Below are positions 1,236 to 16,897 of a stretch of DNA of 52,366 nt, in pieces. The translations under genes and the position numbers were made by a program. The DNA is from Croceicoccus mobilis (lineage in GTDB: Bacteria > Pseudomonadota > Alphaproteobacteria > Sphingomonadales > Sphingomonadaceae): assembly GCF_001661965.1 (NCBI RefSeq), contig NZ_LYWZ01000031.1, forward strand, positions 1 through 52,366, written 5' to 3'. A model generated the notes under the pieces. That model was not told the origin of the DNA. It was given only the letters and a program-made list of their open reading frames with translations, and did not search any database. How positions within the stretch are numbered: position 1 is the stretch's first letter; each line of letters opens with the position of its first letter.

Positions 1236-1547
1236 TCAAACATAAACCCCCGCCGCGATAGCACTGACCATATCGATGACGAATTCCAGTCCCTTGTCGC
1301 TCTCCTCGGCTTTTTGCAGCGGCGTCTGGCCGAGAAGCCAAGGGTGACGATAATTCATGAAGTATATCGTCGAAACAAAGTCGCCCGCATAAAGCTGCTC
1401 GGAAGCGTATAAGGCCGCAGTCGTCGAACGCTCTCCCGTCGCCCCGACAAGGTGCATGCCCTTCAAAAGCAGGGCAGAAGCCTCATCCTCGCGTCCGGAC
1501 TTAACCAGTTCAACCAGATTTGTTTCGCTGTGATTATTCGTGCTCAC
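1236..1547 (-). CDS. Small protein with MbcA/ParS/Xre toxin-binding-like (DUF2384) C-terminus
   Basis: Encodes 103 aa. The C-terminal half resembles the MbcA/ParS/Xre antitoxin toxin-binding domain: residues HPWLLGQTPLQKAEESDKG, then a helix and a G-V-Y-V end match the family pattern W-L..P...L-G.TPL..A...G...V...L..I..GV. The usual HTH part is absent. The start is a GTG that overlaps the tniQ stop (GTGA), with GGGAGC upstream, so the gene is translationally coupled to the transposition operon. No RES-type or other toxin gene is next to it. It might be a stripped antitoxin domain reused as a regulator or target-immunity factor of the transposon; this is inference. The domain call is by eye and moderate in certainty. 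Confidence 0.6.
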   Translation of the reverse strand: MSTNNHSETNLVELVKSGREDEASALLLKGMHLVGATGERSTTAALYASEQLYAGDFVSTIYFMNYRHPWLLGQTPLQKAEESDKGLEFVIDMVSAIAAGVYV

Positions 1548-2791
1548 ACTGACTGCTCCCTGCTTTGATTGAAGCTGTTGGTCAGGCTCAGACGATGCTC
1601 GATCGCTTTGACCGTCATGGGATCGACCCTCATCTTCCGCGCCTTGGCTCTAAGGCTCATTCCCGCAGCGATATCCGAACCTAAAAAGCGTCTCGCTGCC
1701 GGTCCGCATTCTCGCAGTCGGACGCACCCGATGCTGCCGTCGATTTGCCGCGTCCGGCTGTACGAATAGCCGCAATCGCAGCTGAAATGACCATGAAGCT
1801 TGCCCTTGTCTCGGACAGTTCTAAGTCGCGTCACCACTCGCTCACCGAAATGCTCCGCGAGAGGGTTCTCGCATCGATATGGCGGCCTTCCGAAGGGTCG
1901 CTCCTGCGGAGGGAGCGCTGCTAGAGCTTGCCCGATAAGCAAATGCTGCGCAGGTGGCGCGAGCCTGCGCTGATTACGAAAGAAATCGACGAGAGCAGAT
2001 TTGGAGAGAAGGTCAGAAGGGCACTGAAAACCGCCATTGCTGGTCCAGAACTTTCGTATGCGGTCATGGACGGCGTTTGCCCGGACTTGGCTATTACCAC
2101 GGATGAGGCCGGTATCGTTTAAAATATGGCGATAATGGCTGTGCCAGCCAGGTGGCGATTTGGCCCGTGGTGGGTTTACGAGCAATTCGGCGCTCAGTCG
2201 GGCGAATAAGGCCTGCGCATCCGTCGGCTTCGAGGCTGTCTCCAGGCGCATGCCTTTTTGATGCACTCTTGGAAACACAAGCGAGTGCCGGTTAGCAGTC
2301 GTAACAGGAAACGCGCCTTCCAGCCACGATCCATGCCGATGACAAACTTCGACACCGGGAAGCTGGTGCGAACGGCACCACCAGACCTCGCCAAATTCCC
2401 CTTCCATCTCGGCGAGGCACTGCGGGCAAAATCGCAGTCGGTCCGGCAGGCTTATCGGAAAGGTTGCGAGACCAAGTACGAGATGCAGTGAACTGCCAAT
2501 TTCATGCATTTCCGTCCTCGCACGATCACGCACAGCCTCTGACGCAAACGCCGTGTGGTAGTTGAAAGTGGTCGTCCGATCGATCAGCTGGTCTACAGCT
2601 GTGCGGCCGAGCTTCAGGTGCTCTCCTAATGCCGACAAGCCGCAAGGAAGATGCGACAGGGCGACGTAATGACGACCACCCGTCAGCATGCGCGAGAACG
2701 CCGAATAGGTCGGACGTCCCAGATAAAGATGCAGCCGCACCAGAAGACTGTAGAACGTCTCATCGGGATAGGGTTTGGGTAGCCAGCTCAT
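1544..2791 (-). CDS. tniQ: TniQ/TnsD-family target-selection protein
   Basis: Encodes 415 aa from an ATG that overlaps the tnsC2 stop (ATGA). It is the only target selector for both tnsABC sets. The N-terminus (WLPKPYPDETFYSLLVRL) is the classic TniQ start. A zinc-finger pattern C122-x2-C125 ... C150-x2-H153 follows, and a second Cys-rich part near residue 340 (C-D-C-G-Y-S-Y-S-R) is a feature of TnsD-like proteins. The C-terminal residues 375-410 look like a helix-turn-helix segment (LRAKARKMRVDPMTVKAIEH). The length is between TniQ (~400) and Tn7 TnsD (508). Family knowledge: it binds an attachment site and recruits TnsC. The target site cannot be told from the sequence, and no guide-RNA system is present. 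Confidence 0.88.
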   Translation of the reverse strand: MSWLPKPYPDETFYSLLVRLHLYLGRPTYSAFSRMLTGGRHYVALSHLPCGLSALGEHLKLGRTAVDQLIDRTTTFNYHTAFASEAVRDRARTEMHEIGSSLHLVLGLATFPISLPDRLRFCPQCLAEMEGEFGEVWWCRSHQLPGVEVCHRHGSWLEGAFPVTTANRHSLVFPRVHQKGMRLETASKPTDAQALFARLSAELLVNPPRAKSPPGWHSHYRHILNDTGLIRGNSQVRANAVHDRIRKFWTSNGGFQCPSDLLSKSALVDFFRNQRRLAPPAQHLLIGQALAALPPQERPFGRPPYRCENPLAEHFGERVVTRLRTVRDKGKLHGHFSCDCGYSYSRTRQIDGSIGCVRLRECGPAARRFLGSDIAAGMSLRAKARKMRVDPMTVKAIEHRLSLTNSFNQSREQSV

Positions 2792-4371
2792 GAGGCGGCC
2801 TCCGGCCAAATTCCGGCAAGCCCCGCTTCGCTAATCGCCTCCAGTGGCGTCAGACCTTTGGTCGCAGCGATTTCGATCAGCTTGCGCAAGTCGCGATCAT
2901 TCAGGGCATCAACATCCAGCTTGGCACTTGGTCGCTTAGGCCGCTTTGCCTTGCGCAATATGTCCTTGGCCGCCGCGAAAAAGGCGAAGGGATTGTCGTC
3001 CGGGTCGAGACCCTTGTGCCGGATCTGGTCGATCAGGTTGAAGATAATGTCATCGCCTATGCCTTCGCGCTGTAGCTGGGAGATGATCATCTGCAGCCCG
3101 CCGGTCGCTTCGGCGTCGGCAGCGTGATTGAGATCGGTACTTGTAGCTGTCACCGGGATCTGGCTTGGCCCGACCAGGGCTTTCATATTCGCCCAGTAGT
3201 TTCGCTCGAAGCTGTGAAGATCTTCGAATCTCGCGAGCTTTGCCGGATCGCCTGTGTTGAGAGCTTTCACCATGGGGCGGACGGGCGCAAAATCCGTTCT
3301 TGCCACACCGCGAACGAAGTTCGGACGAATTATCTCGTCCGCCTGCGCATCCATCTCGCTGCGATAAAGCAGGCGCAATTGGACCGCGATGTAGAGCTTA
3401 ACCGCAAGATCGATGATCCCGCCCGTCTCTTCGAAAAAGATATCCACGAGCTCATCATCGAGTTCGGTCGGTTCTTGTGTCCATTGATACGTCCAAAGCC
3501 GCGTCAGGCATGATTGCCATTCGGATCCTCGCGTAAGCGGCTTCCAGATCGCACATGCCGGCCCGACAGAACGCCGGGCCATACGACCGGTGCGCTGGAT
3601 GTGCGCCAGTATCGAAAGAGTCCCGACAAATAGCACTGGGATGCCGAGCTGGTTGGTAAGCTGGGTGAGAAAGCTCATCATCTGGTGCTCTTCACCAGCG
3701 ACCCGTCCGATGTGCTGGATCTCGTCAATGACAAGCAGACCCAGTCCGTGGAAATTCGCGGCCAGAGCCATCTGGTGCATCAGCGCGTCTTCCCCGGCGC
3801 GTCGATGCATGAAGAGCGCTGTGTAGTCGGATTTGCCAACAAGCCGGCTGAGTTCATCGAAGAACTGAAAGCACAGGCTGCGGATCGAGCCCTTGTCGGG
3901 GCATTCCAGCTTTAGCCAGGAAACCTGCGCGGGAAGTCCGGGTAGCTCGATCAGCTGCTCATAGCTACGGAGCGCCTGCTCCACGGTCTGCGTTTTGCCC
4001 ATGCCCGGAGCGCCGATCAGAAATCCGCAGCCGGCTCCACCTTCACAGCCAACAGGACGAGATGCCGGGGCCCGTAAGATATTCGATCGGGCCAGCCTCC
4101 GCTGGCGCGCTTCGAATTTCCATGCGGCAGGATCGCGCCCCTCATAGCCTGCCCGCATCAACATATCGATCCCTTCCGCCATGCGCACATGGCGCGCGGT
4201 CGGAACGAAGAGCTGGCGAAGCCGCAAAACGGCATAGCGCCGCTGCACATGCGGCAGTGCCCTTTCCGCATCCGCATGATGGGGGAACGAGGCAAGGTCG
4301 CGGGCGATCTGCTGCATGCCCCTCAAGGGCGGCAGGCCCTGCTGGTAGAGATTGCCTGCAACCTCAGACAT
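2788..4371 (-). CDS. tnsC: TnsC-like AAA+ transposition regulator, module 2
   Basis: Encodes 527 aa. It is the ATP-dependent matchmaker between the transposase and the target selector. Walker A GAPGMGKT is at about 120-127 and Walker B LLVIDEIQH at about 212-220 with both acidic residues, so it should hydrolyse ATP. The TLTNQLGIPVLFVGT segment is the typical sensor-1 region. The C-terminal ~150 residues are basic and helical, as expected for contact with TnsA/TnsB. The start ATG at 4371 overlaps the tnsB2 stop (TGATG), with GGGGAG upstream. The overlap with tniQ downstream shows one operon. It differs strongly in sequence from the other TnsC at 7.6-9.2 kb, so the pair is not a recent duplication. 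Confidence 0.92.
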   Translation of the reverse strand: MSEVAGNLYQQGLPPLRGMQQIARDLASFPHHADAERALPHVQRRYAVLRLRQLFVPTARHVRMAEGIDMLMRAGYEGRDPAAWKFEARQRRLARSNILRAPASRPVGCEGGAGCGFLIGAPGMGKTQTVEQALRSYEQLIELPGLPAQVSWLKLECPDKGSIRSLCFQFFDELSRLVGKSDYTALFMHRRAGEDALMHQMALAANFHGLGLLVIDEIQHIGRVAGEEHQMMSFLTQLTNQLGIPVLFVGTLSILAHIQRTGRMARRSVGPACAIWKPLTRGSEWQSCLTRLWTYQWTQEPTELDDELVDIFFEETGGIIDLAVKLYIAVQLRLLYRSEMDAQADEIIRPNFVRGVARTDFAPVRPMVKALNTGDPAKLARFEDLHSFERNYWANMKALVGPSQIPVTATSTDLNHAADAEATGGLQMIISQLQREGIGDDIIFNLIDQIRHKGLDPDDNPFAFFAAAKDILRKAKRPKRPSAKLDVDALNDRDLRKLIEIAATKGLTPLEAISEAGLAGIWPEAAS

Positions 4372-6464
4372 CAAAACCGCAGCTCCCCGTCACCAAGATG
4401 GTCGAAGCGGCTTGCTGGGTCTGCGCGGCTGATATTGCCCAGTTCTTCGCCAAGTTTCCCGGCAAGCTCTACACGCGCTTCGACCCTACGATGATCTCGC
4501 TCGAACTGGCGCTTCTCCCGTGCATCGGCCAGATTACATGGTCGCAAGCTCTCTATGCGTTTCGCGCGGGCTTCTGCACCAATGACCTCCAGGGAATTCC
4601 GCAAGTCCGCATGAGCGAGTGTTTGCTGGGCGTCCCTGGATGCTGCCTCGACGCGCTTTGCGCGGCGCATGACATCGAATTCTTCGAAAGACCAACCTGA
4701 GTAGCGACTATCGCGCGGCGTCAAATGCAGCGGCACAGGCAGATCTTCGCCCTGAAGATGCAGCCAGACCGTGTCCATCAGCCATGGGTGCAAACTCAGC
4801 TCCACCGATGTTGAGCCAGCAGACAGGTTCACCCCGTCAAACCAGCCTTCACGCTCGAGCCGCTCATTGGTGTAAAATACGCCTTTGCAGCTAACGCCTT
4901 GCGCGGTGATCCGGCCGCTAATTGTCGGTAGCAATGCCACCGCCAATTCGCCCGGATCGAACCGTCTGAGCGCAATACGACCGCGCTTCATGCACCAGGT
5001 CCACATCGCGATCGGACTTGGCGGTACGCCATCCACGATCATGGCATTCGATTGCCGGAATGCGGGGCGCTCCACGCCATTCAAATAGATGATGCAGTGA
5101 ATGAGAACCTTCGTCAGCGCGTCGAGATCGAGAATGGCATCGCGCCGCGGATCCGGCTCCCCGCGCTCACCCGATGTCTTGTCCCGTGCGCCATCCACGA
5201 ATTTGCGCAGCGCGCTGTTGATCAGATGAAAACGCTGCTCGCAGATGCCTTTCAGATCGGCGCGATAGGGCGCGGTATTCTCGATGATCAGCCCAGATTT
5301 GCGGACGAAGTCACTAGCGAGATGCCCACGCCCCTCGCCTCGGTCGAAGAGAATGCGCAGTGGCATCGATCCACCGCAGGGCCATTCAGCCTCGTCGATC
5401 TCGATTCCATGCTCAGCGCAAAAGTCGACCTTGTCCTGTACGCAATTGAGGAGTGCTGCGCCCGCCGCCTGCCAGGATGCATTTTCAAGACTGACCGAGA
5501 AGCCCACGATCATGCCGGTCAATTCGTCGACGACGATATAGAGCGTTGGTGTCCCCAGAAACTGCCAGCAGTCCTTGCGCGAGACAAGGTGCACGTCGAG
5601 CTTGGTCGCGTCGATCACGAACCGCCAGCCGATGTTCTCATTATCCGCCGCCGCATAGGACAGGCGCGGCCTTGTACGCATTTCGTGGCGAACCTCACCA
5701 AAGCGGGCTTTGTCATCGCTCACCGCCCGGTTCTGTTTTTGATACCAGTAACGGAATTGCCGTTCCGTCGGCAGAACCGGGTTCTCGTCTACGAGATAAG
5801 TAAAAGGCTGACCTGTTTCCTCATCGATCTCGCATCTCGTGGCGAGTTGGTCCTTGATGAGGCGGAAGGTTTCGCTGAGCGAGATATGTCTGTTCGCACG
5901 ATAGTACCGATTCGTGCATCGCTCGAATGCGGCGATCATCTCGTCGGTCAGAACGGGGGCGCGTACGAGCCCGTCAATGGGCAAGCGCCCCATGGGACCT
6001 GTTCGCGGTTTTGGCTGGCCGGGCGCTCCGCAATTCTGAAAATTTGGCATCAGTGCTGCCAGCGACATCCCGCCGTGCCAGAACCGGTGGAGGCTCGATT
6101 TGATAGTCTTGGGGCACAGCCCTGACTGCTCCGCTGCCATTGCGATCATGGCTCGCCGCGTCCGCTCGTCGAATATGGCCGGGACACGAACAAACATCGG
6201 TTGCAGCAAGGCGAGACGATCGTGCGCGCGCTGCGTTTGCTTTTCCGTGGCGCAGGCAGGGTGGGTTCGGTTGAAAGGCGATGGATCCTCAAAGCGGATC
6301 ACATTCCGCTCCAAGGCGCTGCTGAAATCGGCGAAATCTTCGATCCTGATGATGATCTTCGGCGATGTCAGATCAAACAGATAGACCTGCTCGTTGGCGA
6401 TGCCGACGATGCGATGCAGCTCCTTGCGCCGATACCGAACAACATCGCGGATGAGGAACGTCAT
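4371..6464 (-). CDS. tnsB: TnsB-like DDE transposase, module 2
   Basis: Encodes 697 aa, close to Tn7 TnsB (702). It cuts and joins the 3' ends. The catalytic triad is visible: D285 (FVIDATKLD), D374 (ILFDRGEG) and E409 (LKGICEQRF). The spacing of 89 and 35 residues is almost that of Tn7 TnsB. The N-terminal ~270 residues carry the DNA-binding helical domains and the C-terminus has a Mu-type beta-barrel region followed by a charged tail that normally contacts TnsC. The start overlaps the tnsA2 stop (ATGA). A wide antisense open frame exists across it but is a codon-bias shadow. Confidence 0.93.
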   Translation of the reverse strand: MTFLIRDVVRYRRKELHRIVGIANEQVYLFDLTSPKIIIRIEDFADFSSALERNVIRFEDPSPFNRTHPACATEKQTQRAHDRLALLQPMFVRVPAIFDERTRRAMIAMAAEQSGLCPKTIKSSLHRFWHGGMSLAALMPNFQNCGAPGQPKPRTGPMGRLPIDGLVRAPVLTDEMIAAFERCTNRYYRANRHISLSETFRLIKDQLATRCEIDEETGQPFTYLVDENPVLPTERQFRYWYQKQNRAVSDDKARFGEVRHEMRTRPRLSYAAADNENIGWRFVIDATKLDVHLVSRKDCWQFLGTPTLYIVVDELTGMIVGFSVSLENASWQAAGAALLNCVQDKVDFCAEHGIEIDEAEWPCGGSMPLRILFDRGEGRGHLASDFVRKSGLIIENTAPYRADLKGICEQRFHLINSALRKFVDGARDKTSGERGEPDPRRDAILDLDALTKVLIHCIIYLNGVERPAFRQSNAMIVDGVPPSPIAMWTWCMKRGRIALRRFDPGELAVALLPTISGRITAQGVSCKGVFYTNERLEREGWFDGVNLSAGSTSVELSLHPWLMDTVWLHLQGEDLPVPLHLTPRDSRYSGWSFEEFDVMRRAKRVEAASRDAQQTLAHADLRNSLEVIGAEARAKRIESLRPCNLADAREKRQFERDHRRVEARVELAGKLGEELGNISRADPASRFDHLGDGELRF

Positions 6465-7246
6465 GCTTCGCCCCCGAATTCAAAATCACTTGCCCGCAGG
6501 TCAGGTGTGAAGGGCTGTGACATATCGAAGGCGAGCAGGCGCAGGCTACAGAGGTGCCGGATGCAGGCGACGAAGTCCTTCTCGGGAAGCTTGCCGTCTG
6601 CTTCAGATTTCTTCGCGAGGTGGGAGATCGGCCAATCGCTGCCTTTGGCTAGCGCCTTGGCCGTCCACTCCAAAGCTTGGCTCCAAAAGGCTTCGCCTTG
6701 ATCGGGGTCGAGCGCCTGCCCGCTTAGCAGCAGCCGAATATTGGCAGCGCGTACGCGATCAAGATTGCGATCCGTCACTATGCGCCATTCGACGCCCTCA
6801 TCTTCCCAATAGCGTCGCTCGATCTCGAGCTTGGAGACCATTTGCTTGAGTGCAGAGGGCGTGCAGCCATTTTTGAGCGCAAAAGCTGCAGAAGGTTTGA
6901 CGGCCCGCGCCTGACGGCTCGTTTGGCCATCGACTTCCATTTCGAAATAAAAATCCGTCGACATGATGGCAGGCCTGCCCCCGACCGGCAGTCGTGGATG
7001 TCTGATGCCGAGCTTTTCTGCGATTGCCTCCGTCCGCTCGAGCTGAAGATCGACCTGTGACCGGATGACGGTCACGTCCGGCCCCCATTCCAGTTCGGCC
7101 TCCAGCCTTGTCTCCAGGTCGCTGAGCTGGTGGAGGATGACACCATCTCGCAGGACCCGCGTCGATCGTCCGCGCGAGGGCACATTATGCACCTTGATCC
7201 GGCTTTGAGCAGGCTTCGCCGACCGCCTGACAGTACGGGCCATCAT
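6461..7246 (-). CDS. tnsA: TnsA-like endonuclease, module 2
   Basis: Encodes 261 aa (Tn7 TnsA is 273). It makes the 5' cuts that turn transposition into cut-and-paste. Candidate active-site residues: Glu in LETRLEAELEW, Asp in MSTDFYFEME and Lys in ARAVKPS, followed by the family block KLEIERRYWEDEGVEWRIVTDR. Residues from about 150 form the winged-helix C-terminal half. Two adjacent ATG codons (7246 and 7243) follow GGAGAGGA, so the start is supported. It is the first gene of the second module, and the 140 bases upstream should hold a promoter. The protein differs clearly from the other TnsA at 11.4-12.3 kb. Confidence 0.9.
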   Translation of the reverse strand: MMARTVRRSAKPAQSRIKVHNVPSRGRSTRVLRDGVILHQLSDLETRLEAELEWGPDVTVIRSQVDLQLERTEAIAEKLGIRHPRLPVGGRPAIMSTDFYFEMEVDGQTSRQARAVKPSAAFALKNGCTPSALKQMVSKLEIERRYWEDEGVEWRIVTDRNLDRVRAANIRLLLSGQALDPDQGEAFWSQALEWTAKALAKGSDWPISHLAKKSEADGKLPEKDFVACIRHLCSLRLLAFDMSQPFTPDLRASDFEFGGEA

Positions 7247-7385
7247 TCCTCTCCAGCGATGCTTCTAGACTTGCCGGGAATGATGCTCCTGCAGTAATCG
7301 TGGAGTCAAGCCTATGACATTATTGTATTTTCAGGATGGCAAAACCGATTAAATCCGTTCCTGCAAACAGATGGAGAGCATTCTG

Positions 7386-7586
7386 ATGCGCGCAAGATTT
7401 TGCTTGGGATTCAGCGAGCAGATCGATCTGGAGATCGATGCGCCCAACCTACAATTCCTGTCCTCAAACTGGCTGATGGGCCGTAAACCCATCATTGGTC
7501 ATCTCTGTCAGCCTGACGAAGACGGCATCTGCCGCGAGGTCCTGATCCATCCTTACAAGGTGAATTGCATCATCTCGCTGGACTGA
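7386..7586 (+). CDS. Small unrecognised protein between the two tnsABC modules
   Basis: Encodes 66 aa from an ATG with GGAGAG 7 bases upstream; an in-frame ATG at 7371 overlaps that site and is less likely. It runs divergently from tnsA2 and convergently towards tnsC1. No helix-turn-helix, membrane helix or signal peptide is seen; two Cys (FCLGF and GICREV) and a closing Cys-Ile-Ile are present. I do not recognise it. Its place suggests either a regulator of the second module or minimal cargo; neither is shown by the sequence. Confidence 0.5.
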   Translation: MRARFCLGFSEQIDLEIDAPNLQFLSSNWLMGRKPIIGHLCQPDEDGICREVLIHPYKVNCIISLD

Positions 7587-7610
7587 GTCGCTATCGCGCT
7601 GGATTGGCTG

Positions 7611-9233
7611 TCATGGCCTGTTGACGGTTGCCTCTCGCCATTTTTTTAGAACCGGCACCGGACTGTAACCTGCCTTCAAGAGGCTTTTCTGCACGTCACA
7701 GCCCTTCCTCAAGACGTGGCGGAGATCTGCCTTTTCCAGCGCCTGGTGCCGCGCCTGGCTAATCGCTTCGCGCTCCTTGTTTCTCTGCCTCTTTTCGGCG
7801 GCGAGACGCTGATTAATCAGGCTGAAATAGCGCTTGGGCTTATGAAACGTCTCGATGTTACCATCAGTGGCTTTCAACTCATCGAGCGATGCAGCGATGT
7901 GGGCTTGTACCGCATGGTCATCACAGCCCGCCTCTTCGCACAGGAGTCTGGCCGCGATTTGCATGGCAAGTCGACGACGTTCATAATCTTCCTTCGTCTC
8001 AGCGTTTCCCGCGTCATGCCGCAGAATTTCCAGTTCCTGCTTGCGAACCTCGGTTCGCTGTTCCTCCTGCAGTTTCGCCAATTCCTGCTCGCGCAGTTTC
8101 CGGCTGTATTCCGAAAGATCGACGTCGAGCGGGCCAAAATGCCTGAGTGCCCGAAGCAGCAAAGGATCTTGGGTCGCAAGGGCAGCCAGCACATGTCGGA
8201 CCGCGTAGAATTCCTGCTCGGCGGTCTTTTCGATCAGCGGAATGATCGCAGCATCTTCAGATATGCTGTTATGCGGCCGGAGTTTTTCGACAAGCGCACC
8301 TAACAGCTTGGCAAGAAACCTCGGTATGCCTTGGGTCTGAACATAAAGAGTGTTGATTACGCCCGTTGAGCATGCAGTTTCCAAATGCGGGATTTGATAC
8401 GCCCAAAACGCGCTCGCAAAGCTGGTCCAATCCTCGCCCGGCTCGATTGGCCCGAGGAACTGCTTGGTATCGCCAAGCAGAGCCTTGGTGATCTGCTCAT
8501 TGCCTATCACGACATCGTAAGCGGCCGCCGTTCCGACCAGTAATACCGGCACGCCAGCCTCAGCTGACAATTGGCACAGAAAGTCGAGTATTCTACGCCG
8601 ATGGTCGATCGGTAGCTGGTCCATGAACTCGACGTGATCGATGATCAGCATGCCGAGCGCGTGGCCAAGGCACGCGGTAATGATGTGACCAGGGACCAGC
8701 TCGCGGGCCATATTCCCGCCCATGACGATATTGCAAAGCGAGGATATGCCAAGACAGTGGTCCAATCCCTGCAAAATGCCGCGATACAAATCCTCGTTGC
8801 TGCTCAAACGCTCAGCATTGATAAGGACAGCCCCTGCCGCAGCAGCATGCGGTCGCCGTTGCTCAATGATCGAGGTTATTCGCTGCACGATCTGGGTTTT
8901 TCCCGTGCCAGAGCTACCGAAAAAACAGCTGATGTCCGGTGCCAAGGGACCAAGCGCCTTGGGCAAAAGCAGCGAGTGCGCAGCGGCTTTCGCGTTATGA
9001 GCGTTCCTGATCTCTGCAGGATGAAGGTCGGCCTCGGCGAAATCGCGCTCGGCCCATTTACGATAAACGCGCTCCAAAATCCATTTAGCGATGTCGATCT
9101 GCTGCGGAAAGGGCGAGAAATATTGGCCGTCCGATGCGGCTTCTTCGAGGCCTCCCCTTCGCAGAGCCGTTGATAGCCTTTGACCATCTTCGATGAGCGC
9201 CGAGAGGTCCTGCCCGCACCGATCATAAATCAT
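7611..9233 (-). CDS. tnsC: TnsC-like AAA+ regulator, module 1, with altered Walker B
   Basis: Encodes 540 aa. Walker A GSSGTGKT is at 106-113. The Walker B segment reads MLIIDHVEF at about 195-203, so the catalytic Glu that normally follows D199 is His200. The protein probably still binds ATP but may hydrolyse it poorly; that is inference from AAA+ knowledge. The segment AEAGVPVLLVGT is the sensor-1 region. A long charged coiled-coil-like stretch (about 385-440, rich in Glu, Arg, Gln) follows, more extended than in the module 2 TnsC. The ATG overlaps the tnsB1 stop (ATGA). The gene ends 365 bases before tnsA2. Confidence 0.9.
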   Translation of the reverse strand: MIYDRCGQDLSALIEDGQRLSTALRRGGLEEAASDGQYFSPFPQQIDIAKWILERVYRKWAERDFAEADLHPAEIRNAHNAKAAAHSLLLPKALGPLAPDISCFFGSSGTGKTQIVQRITSIIEQRRPHAAAAGAVLINAERLSSNEDLYRGILQGLDHCLGISSLCNIVMGGNMARELVPGHIITACLGHALGMLIIDHVEFMDQLPIDHRRRILDFLCQLSAEAGVPVLLVGTAAAYDVVIGNEQITKALLGDTKQFLGPIEPGEDWTSFASAFWAYQIPHLETACSTGVINTLYVQTQGIPRFLAKLLGALVEKLRPHNSISEDAAIIPLIEKTAEQEFYAVRHVLAALATQDPLLLRALRHFGPLDVDLSEYSRKLREQELAKLQEEQRTEVRKQELEILRHDAGNAETKEDYERRRLAMQIAARLLCEEAGCDDHAVQAHIAASLDELKATDGNIETFHKPKRYFSLINQRLAAEKRQRNKEREAISQARHQALEKADLRHVLRKGCDVQKSLLKAGYSPVPVLKKWREATVNRP

Positions 9234-11371
9234 GATTTTACCTTTGCACTTGAAAGGTGGCGTTCCGCCTCGAGATTGACCGCTTTCTCCTTTTGCTTGG
9301 TCTTATCGGTGTCGCGAAGCGACGCTGGAGACAATTTGCCTCCCGTCGCCTCAATGGCTTGGTCACCGATATCCTCGATATTCCTTCGGGTGAGATACCA
9401 GGCGTACGAGCCAGCAGCAGAATTTGATCGCCCCGCCTCGGCCACCCGCTTCGATAGAGTATCAGCCTCTTTAAATGTCATGTTCGCAAAGGCCTTGCAG
9501 GCCGGGCTCAGCCGACATTCCTCATATGTACCATCCGACTGATGCAGCCAGATTTTATTGGTGTCCTTGTGGTCGTAAGACAGTTTTACCGATTTGGCGG
9601 CTGTATTCTCCCAAACCCGGCCCTGAATATGCGCATCGCTGATGAAGAGCATTTTCATGAAACTGATGCCGTCCTTCGTCGAGGTCGCATTGCCAGTTTT
9701 CAGAACAGCCATTTTTAGCATCTCGAGATCGGTCGCGCGCAATTCGGTTCGACCGGTCTCTAGTGCCCAGTTCCAGATGTCCTTCGGAATGGCATCTATC
9801 CCTGCTTTGATCATGTCCGAATTGGGGTGGTAGCCTGCCAGGAAATTGTTGTTATTGAGATAGATGACTGCTCGCACGACCGCGGCTGTCAATTCCTTCA
9901 ATGTCAGCTTCGCCTCACGCCTTGCATCGCTGTCGCCTTTCTCGGAATGGGTTGCATTGAACATACCCGGTACGACGTCCCGCAGGACGGCATGCACCAT
10001 GTCGAAACGCTTCTCGACATTGCCCTTCATGTCGCCGCGATATGGCGCGGTGTTTTCAATCGTGACGCCAGTGCGCACGATGAAATTTTCCGGCTCGTAG
10101 TTTTCGAGCTCGCCGCGGTCAGCGATGATACGCGCTGGCAGCGTATCGCGTACCGGCCAATCGCCATGCTCGATTTCGATATCAAAACGACGGCAATACT
10201 CGACCTTGTCCTCGGCGATGTTGCGGATGGCAATGCCGGCCTCACGCCAAGAGGCGCTTTCAAGGGTCAGGTGCATTCCTACGATCATCTTCGAATAAAC
10301 GTCGACGACAAGATAGAGAGTAGGACGGCCGACATACGCGCGGCGATTGGTTTCAGAAACGCAGCCGACATCGATAGTCGTGGCATCGATCTCAAATCGG
10401 CTGCCAATACCGATCAGATTGTCAAGCGTCGTACCCAGCCTCGAACGTGAGTCCTTCTTCACTTTGGTCGCTCCCTCTCTTGCGATGCGGTCTTCGAAGC
10501 GTCGAGCCTGCTTCTCGTACCAGTACTGATATTGGCGGAACGTTGGCAGCGGGATGGACTGTCGGTCGGCGCGTGTACGTGCGACCAGTCCGCCGCCGCT
10601 TTCGTCGACAGCGAATTGCGTCTGCAGATACCCCTGGATTGTCCGGAACGTTCGCGACAACGAGCCGCGCTTTGCCTTCCGGTAATACTTGTCGGTCGCC
10701 CATTTGAAGACCGCTTCCACATCGTCGTTCATGGGCATGTGGGGGTTGCCGCCCCCTATCTCACGTTTGCGACCGAGCGGCTTAGTTCGTCGAGCCTTGC
10801 CGTTACCCGGAGATCCGCAAGCCTCGAATTTCGGTATGAGCGCATCGGGCGACATCCCGTTGCGCCAATAAAGTTCCAGGTATGATTTGATCGATTTGGC
10901 GCAGGGCACTTTGTTCTTGCGCTCAGGATCGCCACTACAGACTTCGAGCTCAGCCCGATGCTTCGAGATCATTCGTGCGCGGGTCAGCCGATCGAAGACA
11001 TCGGGAACCGTCGTAATCAAGGGCCTGATCAATTCGTAGCGCATGTCGCGGCGCTGTATCTGGACTGGCGTAAGGCTGCTCCCATTCGCGATTCTGACAA
11101 AATCGTCTTCGCGTACCCGCTCGATCTGACGGCGCCCCTCCCAGTCATCGAGTGTCGCCTGGCTCACCAGGTAGAAGTCGCCCCCTTTGCTCGCCAGATC
11201 GAAGACGACGGCATATTTGTGCTCGGTGTAAACGACCCGAAATATCCGATCTTTGGCCAGCGCTTCTCCTTCCAGATTTGGCAGGAAGTTCAGATGGCCG
11301 GGCCCCTTATCGCTTCGGACACGCGCACGCCGCGCCTTTTTCAGACGAAAAATCTCTTTAATGTAGAACAT
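9230..11371 (-). CDS. tnsB: TnsB-like DDE transposase, module 1
   Basis: Encodes 713 aa. The DDE triad is D329 (RFEIDATTID), D418 (RIIADRGELE) and E453 (MKGNVEKRF), again spaced 89 and 35 residues, so the enzyme looks active. The N-terminal part differs from the other TnsB and includes a basic segment (KKARRARVRSDKG) at 11-23. The C-terminus is long and charged. It begins one base after the tnsA1 stop and overlaps tnsC1, so translation is coupled. Two TnsB proteins this different would be expected to recognise different end sequences or to act as a heteromer; the ends could not be identified here. Confidence 0.93.
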   Translation of the reverse strand: MFYIKEIFRLKKARRARVRSDKGPGHLNFLPNLEGEALAKDRIFRVVYTEHKYAVVFDLASKGGDFYLVSQATLDDWEGRRQIERVREDDFVRIANGSSLTPVQIQRRDMRYELIRPLITTVPDVFDRLTRARMISKHRAELEVCSGDPERKNKVPCAKSIKSYLELYWRNGMSPDALIPKFEACGSPGNGKARRTKPLGRKREIGGGNPHMPMNDDVEAVFKWATDKYYRKAKRGSLSRTFRTIQGYLQTQFAVDESGGGLVARTRADRQSIPLPTFRQYQYWYEKQARRFEDRIAREGATKVKKDSRSRLGTTLDNLIGIGSRFEIDATTIDVGCVSETNRRAYVGRPTLYLVVDVYSKMIVGMHLTLESASWREAGIAIRNIAEDKVEYCRRFDIEIEHGDWPVRDTLPARIIADRGELENYEPENFIVRTGVTIENTAPYRGDMKGNVEKRFDMVHAVLRDVVPGMFNATHSEKGDSDARREAKLTLKELTAAVVRAVIYLNNNNFLAGYHPNSDMIKAGIDAIPKDIWNWALETGRTELRATDLEMLKMAVLKTGNATSTKDGISFMKMLFISDAHIQGRVWENTAAKSVKLSYDHKDTNKIWLHQSDGTYEECRLSPACKAFANMTFKEADTLSKRVAEAGRSNSAAGSYAWYLTRRNIEDIGDQAIEATGGKLSPASLRDTDKTKQKEKAVNLEAERHLSSAKVKS

Positions 11372-11372
11372 G

Positions 11373-12254
11373 TCACGCGCTCTCGAGGCTTGGGACCGAA
11401 ACTACCTTCAACGCGCTCAGGAGAACCGAAGGTTCGAACTTCACGTCGAGGTCGAACTCAATCGATCGATCGGCAATGAGTTGCCGCACAGCTTCGACCA
11501 GGTCCGCCGCCGTCAGATCGTGAGCCGGCGAACCTGTGGCATGAGCGAGATCTTCAAGCTTGTCCGTCCGGCGTGCAACGGCCAGATATTCAGCCAGAAA
11601 CGCGAGGAAAGCCTTCTTATCGAAGTTTTCCAAAGCCTTCTTCGGAGCGAGAAGGAAGTGCTCGATATTGGCCTTACGCGTTTGGCTCAGATCATGATCA
11701 GTAACCAAGCTCCAGTTGATTCCTTGACCTTTCCAATAGCGCCGTTCGATCTCAAGCTTGTCGATCGTACGGTATTCGCCCGTCCTGCTTGTCTCCGACT
11801 TTTCCGGATCAACTACTAACTCTTTGACTGGTTTGACCGCGAAAGCATGAACCTCTGCCCGCCCATCGGCAGATATCCAACGCGCCACGAAATCCGTGGT
11901 GAGCACGCTCGGCGAGCCGTCTTTGCTGTGCACCGGATGACTGATCCCGAGATGTCTCGCGATCTCGACCGTATGATCAACATTCTTTTCTTCGAAGTCA
12001 GCCAGCGCAACCTGATCATAGATATCGTGCGCTCCGGCCCACTGCAGTTCACGCAGAAACGCCGTTTCATTATTCGACATGGATTGGACGATCCGCCCGT
12101 TGTGCGGGATTCTGGATGCGAGGCCCAGTGACGAGAAATCGTGAATGGTAATATAGGGCTCGTAATCAGATTTCAGATAATTGCCCTGCCCCTTGGCCAA
12201 CCTGTCTTTGGCCTGCCGGGCGTTCTGAATCCGTTTGCGTTTTGGTGAAGGCAT
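11373..12254 (-). CDS. tnsA: TnsA-like endonuclease, module 1
   Basis: Encodes 293 aa from the ATG at 12254 (start of MPSPKRKR); an upstream TTG at 12275 would add seven residues. Candidate catalytic residues are Glu in NNETAFLREL, Asp in LTTDFVARW and Lys in AFAVKPV. The hallmark TnsA block KLEIERRYWKGQGINWSLVTD follows. The protein is longer than the module 2 TnsA because of an insert between the Lys and this block (about 25 residues, DPEKSETSRTGEY). It is the promoter-proximal gene of the whole ~11-kb minus-strand transposition region. Confidence 0.9.
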   Translation of the reverse strand: MPSPKRKRIQNARQAKDRLAKGQGNYLKSDYEPYITIHDFSSLGLASRIPHNGRIVQSMSNNETAFLRELQWAGAHDIYDQVALADFEEKNVDHTVEIARHLGISHPVHSKDGSPSVLTTDFVARWISADGRAEVHAFAVKPVKELVVDPEKSETSRTGEYRTIDKLEIERRYWKGQGINWSLVTDHDLSQTRKANIEHFLLAPKKALENFDKKAFLAFLAEYLAVARRTDKLEDLAHATGSPAHDLTAADLVEAVRQLIADRSIEFDLDVKFEPSVLLSALKVVSVPSLESA

Positions 12255-12275
12255 AGCGACCCACGATGCTTTCAA

Positions 12276-12495
12276 TAATTCTGCGACGTGGTCGGCTTAA
12301 CGGGCCGATTGCTAAGATTTTCTAAAAAGCGCTATCGCGTTATATCTATAAGCTACAACATGTTATGGCCTATCCGCTTCACTAACAGAGTGCGCATTAC
12401 AGCAGCACCACCTAGCTTTCGTTACACAGAATGATAGGCTGACGATCGGCTGCCCTCAGCCATAGTCGGGCAGTTTGCGCGGCATGAGAGGACCG
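12276..12495. other. Intergenic, expected tnsA-proximal transposon end
   Basis: These AT-richer 220 bases separate tnsA1 from the next gene. By analogy with Tn7 the tnsA-proximal end with several TnsB sites should be here. Short CTATC-containing motifs occur near 12340, 12369 and (reverse) 12432, but I could not define a terminal ACA/TGT pair with a 5-bp target duplication. Confidence 0.35.
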
Positions 12496-12687
12496 ATGAC
12501 AAGCCAACTTGATGATCTGGCGAAAGCGTTTTCCGAGCCGAGTGCTGAGGAGATCGCGTTCCATGAGGACCGCCGCAGAAGAGGTCTCGGCGTAGGACTA
12601 AACGAGCAAGGCGAGCTCGTTTACCAGCGAGATATCAATGCCAAGTCGAACTCAAAATCTGAGTCTAGCGGCAAATCGCGAGACTGA
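12496..12687 (+). CDS. Small hydrophilic hypothetical protein
   Basis: Encodes 63 aa from the ATG preceded by GAGAGG. The sequence is charged, with a Ser/Lys-rich tail and no membrane segment. I do not recognise the family. It sits just outside the Tn7-like operon, divergent from tnsA1. An alternative in-frame start is the ATG at 12484. Confidence 0.5.
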   Translation: MTSQLDDLAKAFSEPSAEEIAFHEDRRRRGLGVGLNEQGELVYQRDINAKSNSKSESSGKSRD

Positions 12688-12703
12688 GTGCCGTACGCCC
12701 ATC

Positions 12704-12716
12704 GGGGGGGGGGGGG
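12704..12716. repeat. Run of 13 G residues
   Basis: A homopolymer of 13 guanines (followed by CCCG) lies between two genes. Runs of this length are rare in bacterial chromosomes, prone to slippage and to sequencing error, and could phase-vary a promoter. No gene frame crosses it. Confidence 0.9.
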
Positions 12717-12794
12717 CCCGAACATTTGATGACCGGAACTGGCCGGAAGGAGACCGTCCGGTTTTGGCAGTCCCAGGTCGGAAAGCTGACGTGC

Positions 12795-13142
12795 CTACTT
12801 TTCGAGCACAGTCCACTCCAACCCGAGTTTGCCGAGGTATTTCCGCAGGCGATCTGAATCATTGGTAGATGCGCGCTGTTCGCGTGAGACCGCAAAGAGG
12901 CTGCGTCCTGCGTCAGAAAGGCTGGCGGAGCGTCGACACACCTCAACCGGATATTCCAGCCGTGCCCAGTCGAATGGGTCAATCTCCCCCACTCGCTCAT
13001 TGCTGAGCAAGTCAGTCAACCCGCCGCTCTCTGCCTTGTCACCTGACCAGAGACGGGCAAGGCGGTCCGTTTCGAAATCTACCGCCTACCGGTCAATCCT
13101 GCCGGTCATGCGCAGGGGCTTCGACGGTCTCGCTGTTTTGGC
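12795..13142 (-). pseudogene. rtcR: 3' remnant of rtcR (RNA-repair regulator)
   Basis: The minus strand matches the C-terminal ~95 residues of RtcR, the sigma-54 activator of the rtcBA RNA-ligase/cyclase operon: FDWARLEYPVEVCRRSASLS, AGRSLFAVSRE and NDSDRLRKYLGKLGLEW are close to the E. coli end. Further upstream TGRIDR and AVDFETDRLARLW align too, but an in-frame TAG (plus-strand 13086-13088) separates them. The AAA+ and CARF-like parts are missing, and no rtcA or rtcB is in the window. It is therefore a decayed remnant. Confidence 0.8.
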
Positions 13143-13178
13143 GCAAGAACAGCCAAAGTGCGCTACAAAAACAACCGA

Positions 13179-13271
13179 TTAGGGCTTCCGCCTTAACGCC
13201 CAAATCAAGCTCGCCAACGCAGATACGAGCAACGCCAAGGCAACCGTCATTGCGGGATCAACTACGAACAT
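13179..13271 (-). CDS. 30-residue single-pass membrane peptide
   Basis: ATG preceded by a perfect GGAGG six bases upstream. The peptide has a hydrophobic segment (AMTVALALLVSALASLIWAL) and ends in RRKP, an N-out/C-in type arrangement with basic C-terminus. The strong ribosome site and membrane pattern argue for a real gene; no function can be assigned. Confidence 0.5.
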   Translation of the reverse strand: MFVVDPAMTVALALLVSALASLIWALRRKP

Positions 13272-13336
13272 GCAATGCCTCCGAATCAAAACGAGGCAGT
13301 CTATGGTCACTAATTGTTCCGTGTAGGACAGCCTTT

Positions 13337-13522
13337 TCAGGCGTCAGGGTTCAAAGCGAAATACCGCTCAGCAATTTGCCGCCAAAGATTTGCACCTCCT
13401 TCGTCACTCTCCTGCTCGAACTTGAGGATGCGACCCTCAATGAACTCGGCTGCATCCGGTCCGTGTATCTGTTCGATCTGCAGGGCGACCGCCCAGAGCT
13501 CTTTATCGCGAGTAAGCGTCAC
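13337..13522 (-). CDS. DUF6961-like small protein
   Basis: Encodes 61 aa from a GTG (MTLTRDKELWAVALQIE); an in-frame TTG at 13534 adds four residues. The pattern TLTRD-E-LW-A..hE..HG.DA..FI..RI resembles a small protein family common in sphingomonads (DUF6961 as I recall it). Its start lies inside the end of the upstream membrane-peptide gene, so the two are translationally coupled. Function unknown. Confidence 0.6.
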   Translation of the reverse strand: MTLTRDKELWAVALQIEQIHGPDAAEFIEGRILKFEQESDEGGANLWRQIAERYFALNPDA

Positions 13523-13652
13523 TGGCCCAGCCAAATATCACTGAAGCAAACGACACAATCAGCAGGACACTTACGATGACCGCCTCGACTTCAACCTTCA
13601 AGGCATCCTTGCTGTTTTGTTCTCGTTCTTCGTCAGTCAACCACTCGCGCAT
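13503..13652 (-). CDS. 49-residue single-pass membrane protein
   Basis: ATG follows AGGGTG at good spacing. The first half is charged (REWLTDEEREQNSKD) and the second is a membrane helix (VEAVIVSVLLIVSFASVIFG), ending with SDAYSR. Its last 20 bases overlap the start of the DUF6961-like gene in another frame, typical for a coupled pair. Unknown function. Confidence 0.55.
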   Translation of the reverse strand: MREWLTDEEREQNSKDALKVEVEAVIVSVLLIVSFASVIFGWASDAYSR

Positions 13653-13878
13653 ATGATCACCCTAGTTCGGAGGTCTGCGGACGGCAATCTAGCTTGATAA
13701 ATTTGGCTTCGCCAGAAGCGCGACTGAGCCGCCCCCGCAACAGTCGCCTTCACGTGGCTCGCGCAAGTTTAGTCTGCAGGGTTTCATCGCCTCTCGATCG
13801 CTTAAAGAGAACTTGTCAGGCACCATCTAAGAAATTTTTAACTTGGCAGAACGAAGCTTCCACCGAGGGGGGCCGATC

Positions 13879-14364
13879 ATGATCGTTGCCAAGGTTTTTA
13901 CCGAAGACAATTTTGGCAATTCCCGATCAAGGCCACGCCGCAGTGTTCGCGTAGCGGTTCAGGCTCTTTCAAATGCTGGCGAACCTGCAGTTATTCGGAA
14001 CCTGTCGCAAAGCGGTTTGCTGCTAGAAACACGCGCATCGTTAAAGGTTGGAGATACATTTGAGGTCGATCTTCCAATTGCGGGCGATTGCTCAGCGGAA
14101 ATCGTATGGTCTGAAGTGAACCGGCACGGATGCCGCTTCTTAATACCCATATCCTCTGCAGCGGTCAGCGCAGCCCAACTAATCTCTCCCTACGACGCAG
14201 AAGATACGATTTTCGAAGAGCCCGGTGGGGCCATGGAGGATTTCTTTGATGAAACCGTGTCGAGGCCTTCCAACAAGGTCTGGCATGCGGCGAACTTCGC
14301 TCTTTTCATGCTGTTGTTGGCAACGGTGCTATTCGTCGTCGGCATGATGAAAGCAGCGATGTAA
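13879..14364 (+). CDS. PilZ-domain protein with C-terminal membrane anchor
   Basis: Encodes 161 aa from the ATG behind GAGGGGGG. The PilZ fold is indicated by RPRRSVRV at about 15-22 (the RxxxR c-di-GMP motif), NLSQSGLLLE at about 41-50 (the D/NxSxxG motif) and a following beta-barrel with a G-C-R-F strand. Residues about 137-158 form a hydrophobic helix, so the domain is probably held at the inner membrane. It lies near a second PilZ protein and a GGDEF protein, suggesting a local c-di-GMP input and output set. Confidence 0.85.
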   Translation: MIVAKVFTEDNFGNSRSRPRRSVRVAVQALSNAGEPAVIRNLSQSGLLLETRASLKVGDTFEVDLPIAGDCSAEIVWSEVNRHGCRFLIPISSAAVSAAQLISPYDAEDTIFEEPGGAMEDFFDETVSRPSNKVWHAANFALFMLLLATVLFVVGMMKAAM

Positions 14365-14548
14365 GCCGCGATCCACCTCAAGGAGCAGCGAGATCGCTGA
14401 CTTGGCTGCGGCCATAACGCCGGGTGGCTTTGTGATACATTCTTGTGAACGGCCATGAGATTACTTTGACGGACAACAAGTTCTCCAGTTAATCAAAAAA
14501 TTAGGATTCGTTCGATATGCAGCGCGGATCGTAACTGGGGGAAATAAC

Positions 14549-15385
14549 TTGAGAAAATTTGCTACGTCTGCGCTTGCAGGCGCTCTGCTGATCTGCAGTG
14601 GCACCGCTATCGCTGAGCCATTGTCTGCAGAGGACATAGTGATGCTTTCGAGGATGGGCTTGGGCGATGATGCAATCATTGCAAAAATTGAGAGCGAGAA
14701 AACTGTCTTCGATCTGACGACAGACCAGATGATTGAGCTAAAAAGCAAAGGCGTTTCATCGAACGTGATTGCCTCCATGCTCAGCACCGGCGCCAATGCC
14801 ACGCCCCAATACTCGATGGATTCGCCTGACCCGAACGTTCCGCACCCAGCCGGCGTTTATCTACTAACCGGCTCAGGAGCAGATGCTCGCATGCAGAGAA
14901 TGAATGCCACAGTTTCTAGCCAAGCAAAGACTGGCGGTATCTTCGGTTATGCTCTTACTGGCGGGCTCGCATCCGCGAGCGTCAAAGTGGCAATCCAGGA
15001 TGAAACCTCTCCTGTGCAAGCCACCACCAAGCCGGTGTTTTACTTTTTCTTCGACCAAGCGAGAGATCAAGCTGCATCAAACGCTTGGGCTAGCGGCGCT
15101 AATACGTCGGTTCAATCGCCTGCAGAGTTCACACTCGTCGAACTGGATAAGAAAAAGGGCCGTCGCGAGGCTAGGGTTGGCAGCATGAATATCGCCGGAG
15201 CAAAATCGGGCGTGATGGATAAGGATCGAATATCTTTCCATTACGAGATGGTGCGTCCGGGGGTTTACGAGGTTAAGGCCGACAGCGTGATGGAGCCTGG
15301 TGAATATGGCTTCATCTTTTCGCTAGGCGGTGGCGGGACTGCTGGCGCAATGACGGCTCGGATTTTTGATTTTTCGGTGAGGTAG
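14549..15385 (+). CDS. Secreted/periplasmic hypothetical protein
   Basis: Encodes 278 aa from a TTG that follows GGGGG at seven bases. A signal peptide is clear (RKFATSALAGALLICSGTAIA, cut after Ala near residue 22). The next part, LSAEDIVMLSRMGLGDDAII and a following helix ending VSSNVIASML, resembles the short SHOCT-like helical repeats found in many envelope proteins. The C-terminal ~180 residues are predicted beta-rich with a Gly-rich end and are not recognised. Function unknown; an envelope location is inferred. Confidence 0.75.
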   Translation: MRKFATSALAGALLICSGTAIAEPLSAEDIVMLSRMGLGDDAIIAKIESEKTVFDLTTDQMIELKSKGVSSNVIASMLSTGANATPQYSMDSPDPNVPHPAGVYLLTGSGADARMQRMNATVSSQAKTGGIFGYALTGGLASASVKVAIQDETSPVQATTKPVFYFFFDQARDQAASNAWASGANTSVQSPAEFTLVELDKKKGRREARVGSMNIAGAKSGVMDKDRISFHYEMVRPGVYEVKADSVMEPGEYGFIFSLGGGGTAGAMTARIFDFSVR

Positions 15386-15425
15386 TAGTCGCGCCCGGCA
15401 TCAGGATTTATGAAAACGTAGCAAA

Positions 15426-15459
15426 CCTCTGGAGCGCGCTTTATCGAGCCCTCCAGAGG
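15426..15459. terminator. 9-bp perfect stem downstream of the secreted-protein gene
   Basis: CCTCTGGAG at 15426-15434 pairs with CTCCAGAGG at 15451-15459 across 16 bases. It lies 40 bases after the stop of the preceding plus-strand gene and could end its transcript, but there is no T-tract. Confidence 0.35.
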
Positions 15460-15516
15460 TCGGTATGTCCATCGATCCTAACAGCGCATTTCATTGACCC
15501 GAAGACCAGCAAAGCT

Positions 15517-15690
15517 GACGTGACCCCCAGCTTTCCCCCAGCTGGGATTAGAGCCGGGCGGTTGTTTTGCGCATGAGCGCGGTTGAAGCAATGGGCTGCG
15601 TAGCGAAGCAGGCCATTGCTTATCCAGTTTGGCGGCGAATGCCGCCGGGGTTGCGTAGGCGAGGATTGCCCCCGTCAGGGCCCGTGGCTG
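15517..15690 (-). pseudogene. Remnant of an IS3-family transposase 3' end
   Basis: The minus strand encodes the typical IS3 tail in two frames: YATPAAFAAKLDKQWPASLR, then, after a frame change, TQPIASTALMRKTTARL ending at the TAA (15548-15550). A short repeat GCTACGC at the junction suggests a deletion between direct repeats. The following bases (to about 15517, TGACCCCCAGC type) look like the terminal repeat of the lost element. The rest of the IS is absent. Confidence 0.7.
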
Positions 15691-15774
15691 CGAACCGCTG
15701 TCGCCGTGATGCGACTGGTTGAAGAGGTCGCGGATTCCCCGGTTCTCAAACATGCGGGTGAAGGACGGATCCTC

Positions 15775-16272
15775 TCAAGGCTTAAGCGCAGACCCTATTG
15801 CCGCCATCGGCTTCGAAATTGCATCGAAAGCATAGTAAGCTGTTGTCGCTATGATCGCTGCCCCTCCGAGGGTCAGAGAGGTTCTTTCGAAAACCTGCCC
15901 TACCCACCGCCAATCATCAGGGCTTTGGATAATTCGGGCTTGGCAATTCTCAGGTCTGGTCGAATAATTCCGGCGATCGTTCGCCGTACCGTTTGCTTTG
16001 CCTTCGATCACGGCATCGAAGTCAATTTCGTCAGATAGCATCACGCCGAAACGGTTGCCGTTCCTCCAGACCACTCGGCCTATAAGAATCTGTTCGAAGC
16101 GCCTGATTTCTATGTAGTGCCCCCGATCAGGAGGGTCGGCGGATTCGGCCATGAGCCCTTTTTTTGAGATGTCTCGAATGCTGAGATCGATCCAATCATA
16201 ATCGGCTCGCATTCGACCACTAAGGCGGACTTTCTTGCGCGGCGACCGCTTGCGCAACCCAATTGATACCAT
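15775..16272 (-). CDS. PilZ-domain protein with C-terminal membrane segment
   Basis: Encodes 165 aa from the ATG at 16272; the frame extends further upstream but that part lies toward the duplicated arm and is unlikely to be coding. PilZ features: RKRSPRKKVRLSGRM at about 8-22 (basic c-di-GMP contact), then IDLSIRDISKKGLMAES at about 28-44 and a barrel ending in GNRFGVML. Residues about 137-155 (SLTLGGAAIIATTAYYAF) form a membrane helix. It is a second PilZ output protein beside the one at 13.9 kb; the two share only the domain plan. Confidence 0.75.
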   Translation of the reverse strand: MVSIGLRKRSPRKKVRLSGRMRADYDWIDLSIRDISKKGLMAESADPPDRGHYIEIRRFEQILIGRVVWRNGNRFGVMLSDEIDFDAVIEGKANGTANDRRNYSTRPENCQARIIQSPDDWRWVGQVFERTSLTLGGAAIIATTAYYAFDAISKPMAAIGSALKP

Positions 16273-16370
16273 GTGCAATCCGCTAATGAATGGCGACCAT
16301 TCACGGTTATGCTGCAGATGCGTTAAAAAATTGGAATAGTGTGCTTTTGATAGCAGTGGGGTCAAAGGCG

Positions 16371-16897
16371 TCAGCATAAATTGGCTGACCTGAACATTCG
16401 GGGTGTCCAAGCCAGCCAATCCTAGGTGCCGCAGTGTAAAGCGGCACAACCGGGGCACCCGGTAAGACCGCTTCTGCCAGAAGCTTCCTAATCTTTGCTT
16501 TAGCGCCCTCGCTTCAACCGACCGAGAACTGGCGGCTTAATTCATCTGCCAGTGAGTCCCAACGGCTCGCTGCCTTGAGATGCTTGTCCTTAATGTGAGG
16601 CATGGTGGCGCGTGAGGCGGCGTATCGTTCATCGGCTGCGTTCTGCCGATAACCGGATGCGTAACTCATTGTAATCAGACCCTTCAAATGACGTCTATTC
16701 TTCTGGGCCTAAACCTTCAGGAAAGGGTTTCTGGGTATGGATACTGAATGTCTGAAGAGCATCGTTACCATTCCCCTACCGTCCGCTCGATCATGGAGGC
16801 GGAGCCAGAACGGGAAGGTCAGCGATCTTCAAGATCGGCTTCCAAGAAAGCCAGTGTCGGAACCGCTGCATTTTTCGGACTGCTGCTGATCGTGAAC
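16371..16897 (+). repeat. Arm A of a ~530-bp inverted repeat
   Basis: This segment is repeated in opposite orientation at 32663-33189, at roughly 85-90% identity by eye. It contains the small divergent gene pair at 16514 and 16748. The two arms enclose ~15.8 kb with the diguanylate cyclase, the putative nuclease trio and the trehalose/sucrose island. Identity ends abruptly at GTGAAC (16897). Confidence 0.85.
16514..16669 (-). CDS. 51-aa hypothetical protein, copy A
   Basis: Begins MSYASGYRQNAADERYAASR and continues with a basic, helical part (PHIKDKHLKAASRW) to SRQFSVG. AAGGGT lies upstream of the ATG. It is nearly identical to the gene at 32890-33045. Conservation of the frame between the diverged copies (changes mostly silent) supports that it is coding. 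No known domain. Confidence 0.65.
   Translation of the reverse strand: MSYASGYRQNAADERYAASRATMPHIKDKHLKAASRWDSLADELSRQFSVG

Follow-up and report, generated by a model that had tools for sequence, protein, structure and literature searches.

Tn7 generates a target duplication of 5 bp, and tandem insertions of different Tn7-like elements occur at one att site. In Tn7 TnsB, the last 22 residues are essential for contact with TnsC (PMC9371665), and PMC11208146 connects a failure to hydrolyse ATP with the loss of target immunity. The dual tniQ/tnsD Tn7-like elements described in PMC10293859 resemble the locus reported here in the in situ duplication of a transposition component followed by divergence; in those elements it is the selector that is doubled, whereas here there are two copies of the whole of tnsABC and one selector. 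Among the titles and abstract openings searched, neither a doubled tnsABC nor a Tn7-type array devoid of tns genes was found, a weak negative given the thin coverage of subscription literature.

The element studied here lies partly within a 52,366-nucleotide stretch of the Croceicoccus mobilis genome (the window). It resembles Tn7 in possessing homologues of TnsA, TnsB, TnsC and TnsD, in being inserted immediately past glmS with its right end closest to that gene, in the several TnsB-type sites at each end, and in having Tn7 TnsB and Tn7 TnsC as its best solved relatives. It differs from Tn7 in carrying two tnsABC sets, in its 4-bp duplications, in the 24 kb that separate tnsA_a from the right end, and in the occurrence of like-ended tandems. 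The element is a real, unusual variant of the Tn7 family. The upstream set (set a) occupies positions 12275-7611 and the downstream set (set b) 7246-2788, with the following genes.

11373..12275, - strand: tnsA_a, 300 aa, TnsA-like N domain, E/D/K residues kept
9230..11371, - strand: tnsB_a, 713 aa, DDE intact, without the C-terminal tail present in other TnsBs
7611..9233, - strand: tnsC_a, 540 aa, Walker A kept, Walker B changed from DE to DH, ARR motif lost
7371..7586, + strand: 71-aa ORF between the modules, divergent from tnsA_b
6461..7246, - strand: tnsA_b, 261 aa
4371..6464, - strand: tnsB_b, 697 aa, DDE intact, C-terminal tail present
2788..4374, - strand: tnsC_b, 528 aa, canonical TnsC, matched by Tn7 TnsC in the PDB at 2.4e-52
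1544..2809, - strand: tniQ/tnsD, 421 aa, Pfam TnsD 2.5e-29 and TniQ 3.5e-19
1236..1547, - strand: small ORF at the end of the b operon, 103 aa, weak antitoxin-type toxin-binding domain

The initial annotation had described two tnsA-tnsB-tnsC operons in the same direction with one tniQ and a small distal gene, and all eight of these open reading frames lie where it placed them. It had also described the genes of each set as overlapping. Five adjacent pairs do so, by 4, 4, 4, 22 and 4 bp, but tnsA_a and tnsB_a lie 1 bp apart. The two sets are separated by 364 bp and are clearly diverged, as had been claimed, with identities of 32% for TnsA, 34% for TnsB and 25% for TnsC (264 columns). The DDE triad and the TnsA catalytic E, D and K are present in both sets; the TnsB_a triad (D329/D418/E453) is invariant in alignment A1 and that of TnsB_b aligns with it, which bears out the earlier statement that both triads are intact. 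TnsB_b has no Pfam match and was assigned by comparison with the other set and by alignment. A profile of both TnsB sets found Tn7 TnsB (7pik) as its best solved relative, at 7.4e-113. When TnsB_a was searched against its own genome, 10 places were found, of which the 8 apart from the two sets are partial matches with an E value of 7e-11 or weaker. Seven places on contigs C28-C32 share an equal weak TnsB score and 555-aa open frames, and are probably one repeated insertion sequence.

A profile search identified the tniQ gene at 1544-2809 as the only one in the window; it belongs to set b. The small ORF at 1236-1547 gave a weak Xre/MbcA/ParS_C match (7e-4, under the Pfam cut-off) and no tblastn match at 0.01 in G194, a genome of another genus that is considered below. 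The 71-aa ORF had no Pfam match up to 0.01, and a similar stretch lies upstream of the set b tnsA of G194.

The following features lie at the attachment site.

36527..38350, - strand: glmS, the host gene of the attachment site, sharing 83% identity with the G194 glmS over 607 aa
36494..36504, - strand: 11-bp tip TGTTGTGAGAC of the right end of an older element, 22 bp past the glmS stop
36416..36493, - strand: right end with tip TGTTGTGAGACAA and three TnsB-type sites at 36468-36486, 36448-36466 and 36417-36435

glmS is present in 14/14 genomes of the genus. Downstream of it, the sequence from 36493 reads TGTTGTGAGACAATAAAGTC... and contains three copies of the site ACAAWAAAGWCTTTCCA. An end-site search of the window returned 3 matches against 0.03 expected, all of them at this right end; across the whole window no further strong end site was found, and none lies between the sets. 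Elsewhere in the genome (G000, in which the window contig is C25), a tip search allowing up to 3 mismatches found one other place, at C22:17689 on a second contig. This match alone proves little, because the tip pattern read backwards also matched once in the genome. Inward of C22:17689 lie three sites spaced 56 and 76 bp apart, like the left ends of another genome, G119; the opposite, window end has three sites spaced 20 and 31 bp apart, like right ends. Both G000 ends thus carry three TnsB-type sites, with TGT...ACA tips.

The sequence outside the window right end is TGTTGTGAGAC and that outside the C22 left end is AGACAAAAAAGTC, and both share an exact 4-bp repeat, AGAC; the last 4 bases of the older tip (36494-36497) are the target duplication. 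When the flanks are joined with one AGAC copy removed, the resulting sequence, TGTTGTGAGACAAAAAAGTCTTTCC, is an intact right end of the same kind, 22 bp past the glmS stop. This rebuilt right end, together with the AGAC match, indicates that the two-set element was inserted as a unit, 11 bp into the right end of an older element resident at attTn7. The rebuilt target was used in place of an empty site, as no clean one was found: the post-glmS sequences of motif-less genomes share no flank with G000 or G194 by eye. C25 starts within an IS3-type gene and C22 ends, by our reading, near an IS5-like ORF; the contigs are not joined by sequence and the assignment of the left end spans both. The element comprises 36.5 kb in the window and 7.8 kb in C22 plus the gap between contigs, at least 44 kb in total. 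Its left end is only 61-63% identical to the left ends of G119 and a further genome, G178, while the right ends are 91-92% identical.

Several candidate ends were discarded. Repeats of 18-23 bp near the modules in G194 were dropped once ends had been found at glmS. A G194-type tip, TGTNGNCGGACAAT, gave 5 matches in the window against 3.65 expected, no better than chance; one of these five, carrying 2 mismatches, is the true right end. No end pair emerged when positions 1-1600, 7200-7700 and 12200-14000 and the corresponding parts of G194 were searched for repeats.

Taken together, the sequence evidence supports well a single Tn7-family element downstream of glmS with both sets within one end pair. 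The initial annotation had given the element as 1236-12275; the mobile element instead runs from 36493 leftwards beyond the contig start, to a left end at C22:17689. Separate ends and duplications around each module, in a pair peculiar to this genome, were looked for and the opposite was found. Two readings had been offered, nested elements and a heteromeric machine, and the first is disfavoured by the one set of ends, the one 4-bp duplication and the presence of the pair in a second genus.

The region between the right end and module a (12276..36415) is occupied by cargo, which includes glycosyltransferases together with the genes below.

13843-14364, + strand: PilZ protein
17029-18033, + strand: GGDEF protein
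21287-22615, + strand: trehalose-phosphate synthase-type gene
26743-28875, + strand: sucrose-phosphate synthase/phosphatase-type gene
35352-36116, + strand: Crp-type regulator

Past the left end, C22:1-17688 (loci L104 and L103) represents either the next element or the chromosome. It contains a catechol dioxygenase gene and ORFs that, by our reading, resemble beta-ketoadipate pathway genes.

The distribution of the pair was assessed in related genomes. TnsB_a matched 5 and TnsB_b 4 of the 298 genomes of the family at 1e-60, with two TnsB matches in 2/298, G000 and G194. At the same threshold the TnsB alignment matched 4/396 genomes of the order, two matches again being confined to G000 and G194. 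TnsB_b alone matched 2/296 genomes at 1e-90, and a class-level search of 385 genomes with TnsB_a at 1e-100 returned no genome but its own. A search of a plasmid collection with TnsB_a, TnsC_b and TnsC_a found nothing at 60% identity or above. The intact pair is known from only these two genomes, which limits the claim.

The initial annotation had proposed asking whether the modules co-occur in the same order elsewhere, and in G194 they do, inside one end pair at glmS. Both sets are on one strand: a' comes first and is separated by about 15.6 kb of other genes from b', which is accompanied by tniQ. The right end lies 21 bp past the glmS stop and the left end 57 kb further on a single contig; the end sites are of one type, ACTG is present on both sides, and a tip resembling the G000 right end directly follows the element. 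Between the right end and tnsA_a' is a Hachiman-like pair (HamB-type helicase, 6.6e-51; HamA-type, 7e-4). Immediately after tnsC_a', positions 16640-16700 of locus L021 resemble the 3' portion of a tRNA gene, a possible sign that a separate island was inserted between the modules. A third genome, G258, contains only a broken module a on a short contig, with tnsC cut at 133 aa and tnsB cut beside what we read as an IS110-type ORF; no set b was found there. A lone b-type TnsB is present in the 40 kb of G099 examined.

In all, 19 glmS-downstream stretches were compared (G000, G194 and 17 others; there were 20 glmS matches, and G869 was left out as its contig ends in glmS). An end motif is present at the start of 6/19 stretches (G000, G119, G178, G258, G194 and G073), as scored with end-site weights built partly from these same ends, and the right-end tips lie 21-33 bp past the glmS stop in all six genomes. 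The stretch after glmS in G871 looked end-like by eye; it contains no scoring site and was left uncounted. In G258 the right end is present, and up to the contig end there is no left end and no tns gene. Seven elements could be delimited at both the right and the left end, a single one in each of G000, G194 and G073 and a pair in each of G119 and G178. Two of the seven, those of G000 and G194, contain tns genes, each with both sets, and a tns profile search (E 0.1) found none in the other five. These tns-less elements are 17-51 kb long, are arranged in tandem at glmS and come from genomes in which TnsB had no match at 1e-60. Their loci are as follows.

G119: L075, L088-L090
G178: L076, L091, L092
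G073: L083, L095-L097, L100

Among the G119 elements, one includes a HamA/helicase pair together with an Mrr-type gene. In G178, at joined position 45358-45400 (L092), a 22-bp copy of a right-end tip directly precedes the third right end and is probably the scar of an earlier insertion.

The bases outside the ends match exactly over 4 bp in 6/7 elements, the exception being that of G073, and over 5 bp in 0/7. On re-pairing of the flanks, 2/5040 arrangements, namely the pairing observed and its equivalent, give 6 matches, with the qualification that array neighbours share a flank and re-paired flanks are not fully independent. Tandems of different Tn7-like elements resemble these arrays in placing several elements of the same orientation at glmS. 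Those of G194 and G073 fit this pattern and require no loss of immunity, because the right ends of neighbours there belong to different types (identities of 50 and 55%). The arrays of G119 and G178 differ in that neighbouring ends are 90-100% alike (right, 96-100%; left, 90-94%), and 5/7 delimited elements lack tns genes. These like-ended tandems, together with the G000 insertion inside a like end, argue against strong immunity. Recombination is an alternative and could have built the arrays of G119, G178 and G073, which are now without tns genes.

The descent of the two sets was examined with phylogenetic trees. A TnsB tree of 15 rows compared the a and b types with G006, two Azospirillum, Stenotrophomonas, Vibrio, Klebsiella, Aeromonas, Peribacillus and G702. 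The a-type sequences of the window, G258 and G194 formed one clade (98/96) and the b-type sequences of the window, G194 and G099 another (100/100), the two being sisters (100/99) apart from all other rows. Removal of the long-branched G702 left this arrangement in place (a, 96/96; b, 100/100; a+b, 100/100), and two rival placements fitted worse (p-AU 0.020 and 0.038, for groups named after the tree had been seen). On the TnsC tree a groups with a' (94/96) under a long-branch warning, and when the window a-type sequence is omitted that of G194 stands alone on a long branch. The TnsA tree places the a-type sequence of G194 with b (84/88), although a grouping of a with a' was not rejected (p-AU 0.31). 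Judged by the TnsB phylogeny, the sets are paralogues that form sister clades, and both genera have each of them. Most likely the tnsABC duplication predates both genera; TnsA and TnsC alone would not show this.

Set a is altered in two of its proteins. In a TnsC comparison of 13 rows, 2 a-type and 10 other sequences were readable throughout, the G258 fragment being too short at Walker B and ARR. Walker B reads DH or DD in 2/2 readable a-type TnsCs and DE in 10/10 others; the ARR motif is lost in the same two and kept in 10/10 others, and a separate alignment with Tn7 TnsC showed the same losses for the window protein. Walker A is kept in a-type TnsCs, including the G258 fragment. Set b thus has both Walker motifs, whereas set a has Walker A without the Walker B glutamate or ARR. 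By eye, the C-terminal tail is missing from both complete a-type TnsBs (TnsB_a and that of a') and present in b-type and other TnsBs.

We propose, at what we regard as an even chance of being right, that a single Tn7-family transposon carries here a second machine with a specialised role, perhaps that of weakening target immunity. An ancestor would have duplicated tnsABC and retained both copies inside one end pair. Module b (TnsA_b, TnsB_b, TnsC_b and TnsD) would find attTn7 in the usual way. Module a would retain its cutting and joining enzymes with altered regulation: TnsC_a should bind ATP yet hardly hydrolyse it, and TnsB_a lacks the tail that contacts TnsC. Cooperation of the sets would then consist of module a serving as a specialised partner of module b at the ends they share.

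Alternatively, module a might be a vestige, an old duplicate with decaying regulation, with module b and TnsD doing all the work. The loss of conserved motifs from TnsC_a, its long branch and weak constraint, the broken copy in G258 and the lack of a tniQ accompanying set a in either G000 or G194 would all fit decay. The comparison with G258 gave a dN/dS for tnsC_a of 0.36 (NG86) or 0.68 (YN00) over 126 codons and for tnsB_a of 0.126 (NG86) or 0.15 (YN00) over 350 codons, values that mix constrained and unconstrained time because the G258 copy is broken. The low tnsB_a value speaks against a vestige. So do the facts that two genera have full-length a ORFs retaining the DDE and TnsA residues, that both show losses of one kind, and that module a is still linked to b in both genomes. 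We consider this explanation rather unlikely.

Somewhat less probable still is that module a serves as an independent transposase for other ends, such as those of tns-less elements or of another type, without cooperating with b. Five end-bounded elements without tns genes do exist, the tip directly after the G194 element is G000-like, and TnsB_a and its a' counterpart have a common N-terminal insert that is absent from b. Nevertheless, the ends observed carry one site family per element type, no second end pair surrounds module a in the window, and the module is without a selector of its own. That two separate Tn7-like elements, tandem or nested, later lost their intervening junction is very improbable: tandem Tn7-type elements at glmS in several of these genomes and the 24 kb between the window right end and tnsA_a would accommodate it, but the same order and composition recur in two genera, a and b are sister paralogues, the 4-bp flanks at the outer ends match in both G000 and G194, and a short ORF is conserved between the modules.

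Returning to the specialised second machine, its most tentative part concerns immunity. A TnsC without its catalytic glutamate, a tail-less TnsB, the insertion within a like end and the like-ended tandems of G119 and G178 suggest, tentatively, that set a loosens immunity; it may thereby let like-ended elements stack at one site, including tns-less ones moved in trans. A more far-reaching version, which we think unlikely, is that the second, hydrolysis-impaired tnsABC joins the TnsD-guided machine and turns off immunity, and that the mixed machine would cut a 4-bp rather than a 5-bp stagger and build glmS arrays that include tns-less satellites moved in trans, turning the att site into an expandable island.

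Programmable insertion tools take the regulation of Tn7, with its immunity and strict target choice, as a model. An element found in nature whose two machines have diverged, one of them being altered in the TnsB tail and the TnsC ATPase site, would offer a direct test of the parts that confer immunity, and of whether mixed transpososomes work. The tns-less elements point to a capacity of Tn7-type systems to sustain satellites and arrays at a single safe site.
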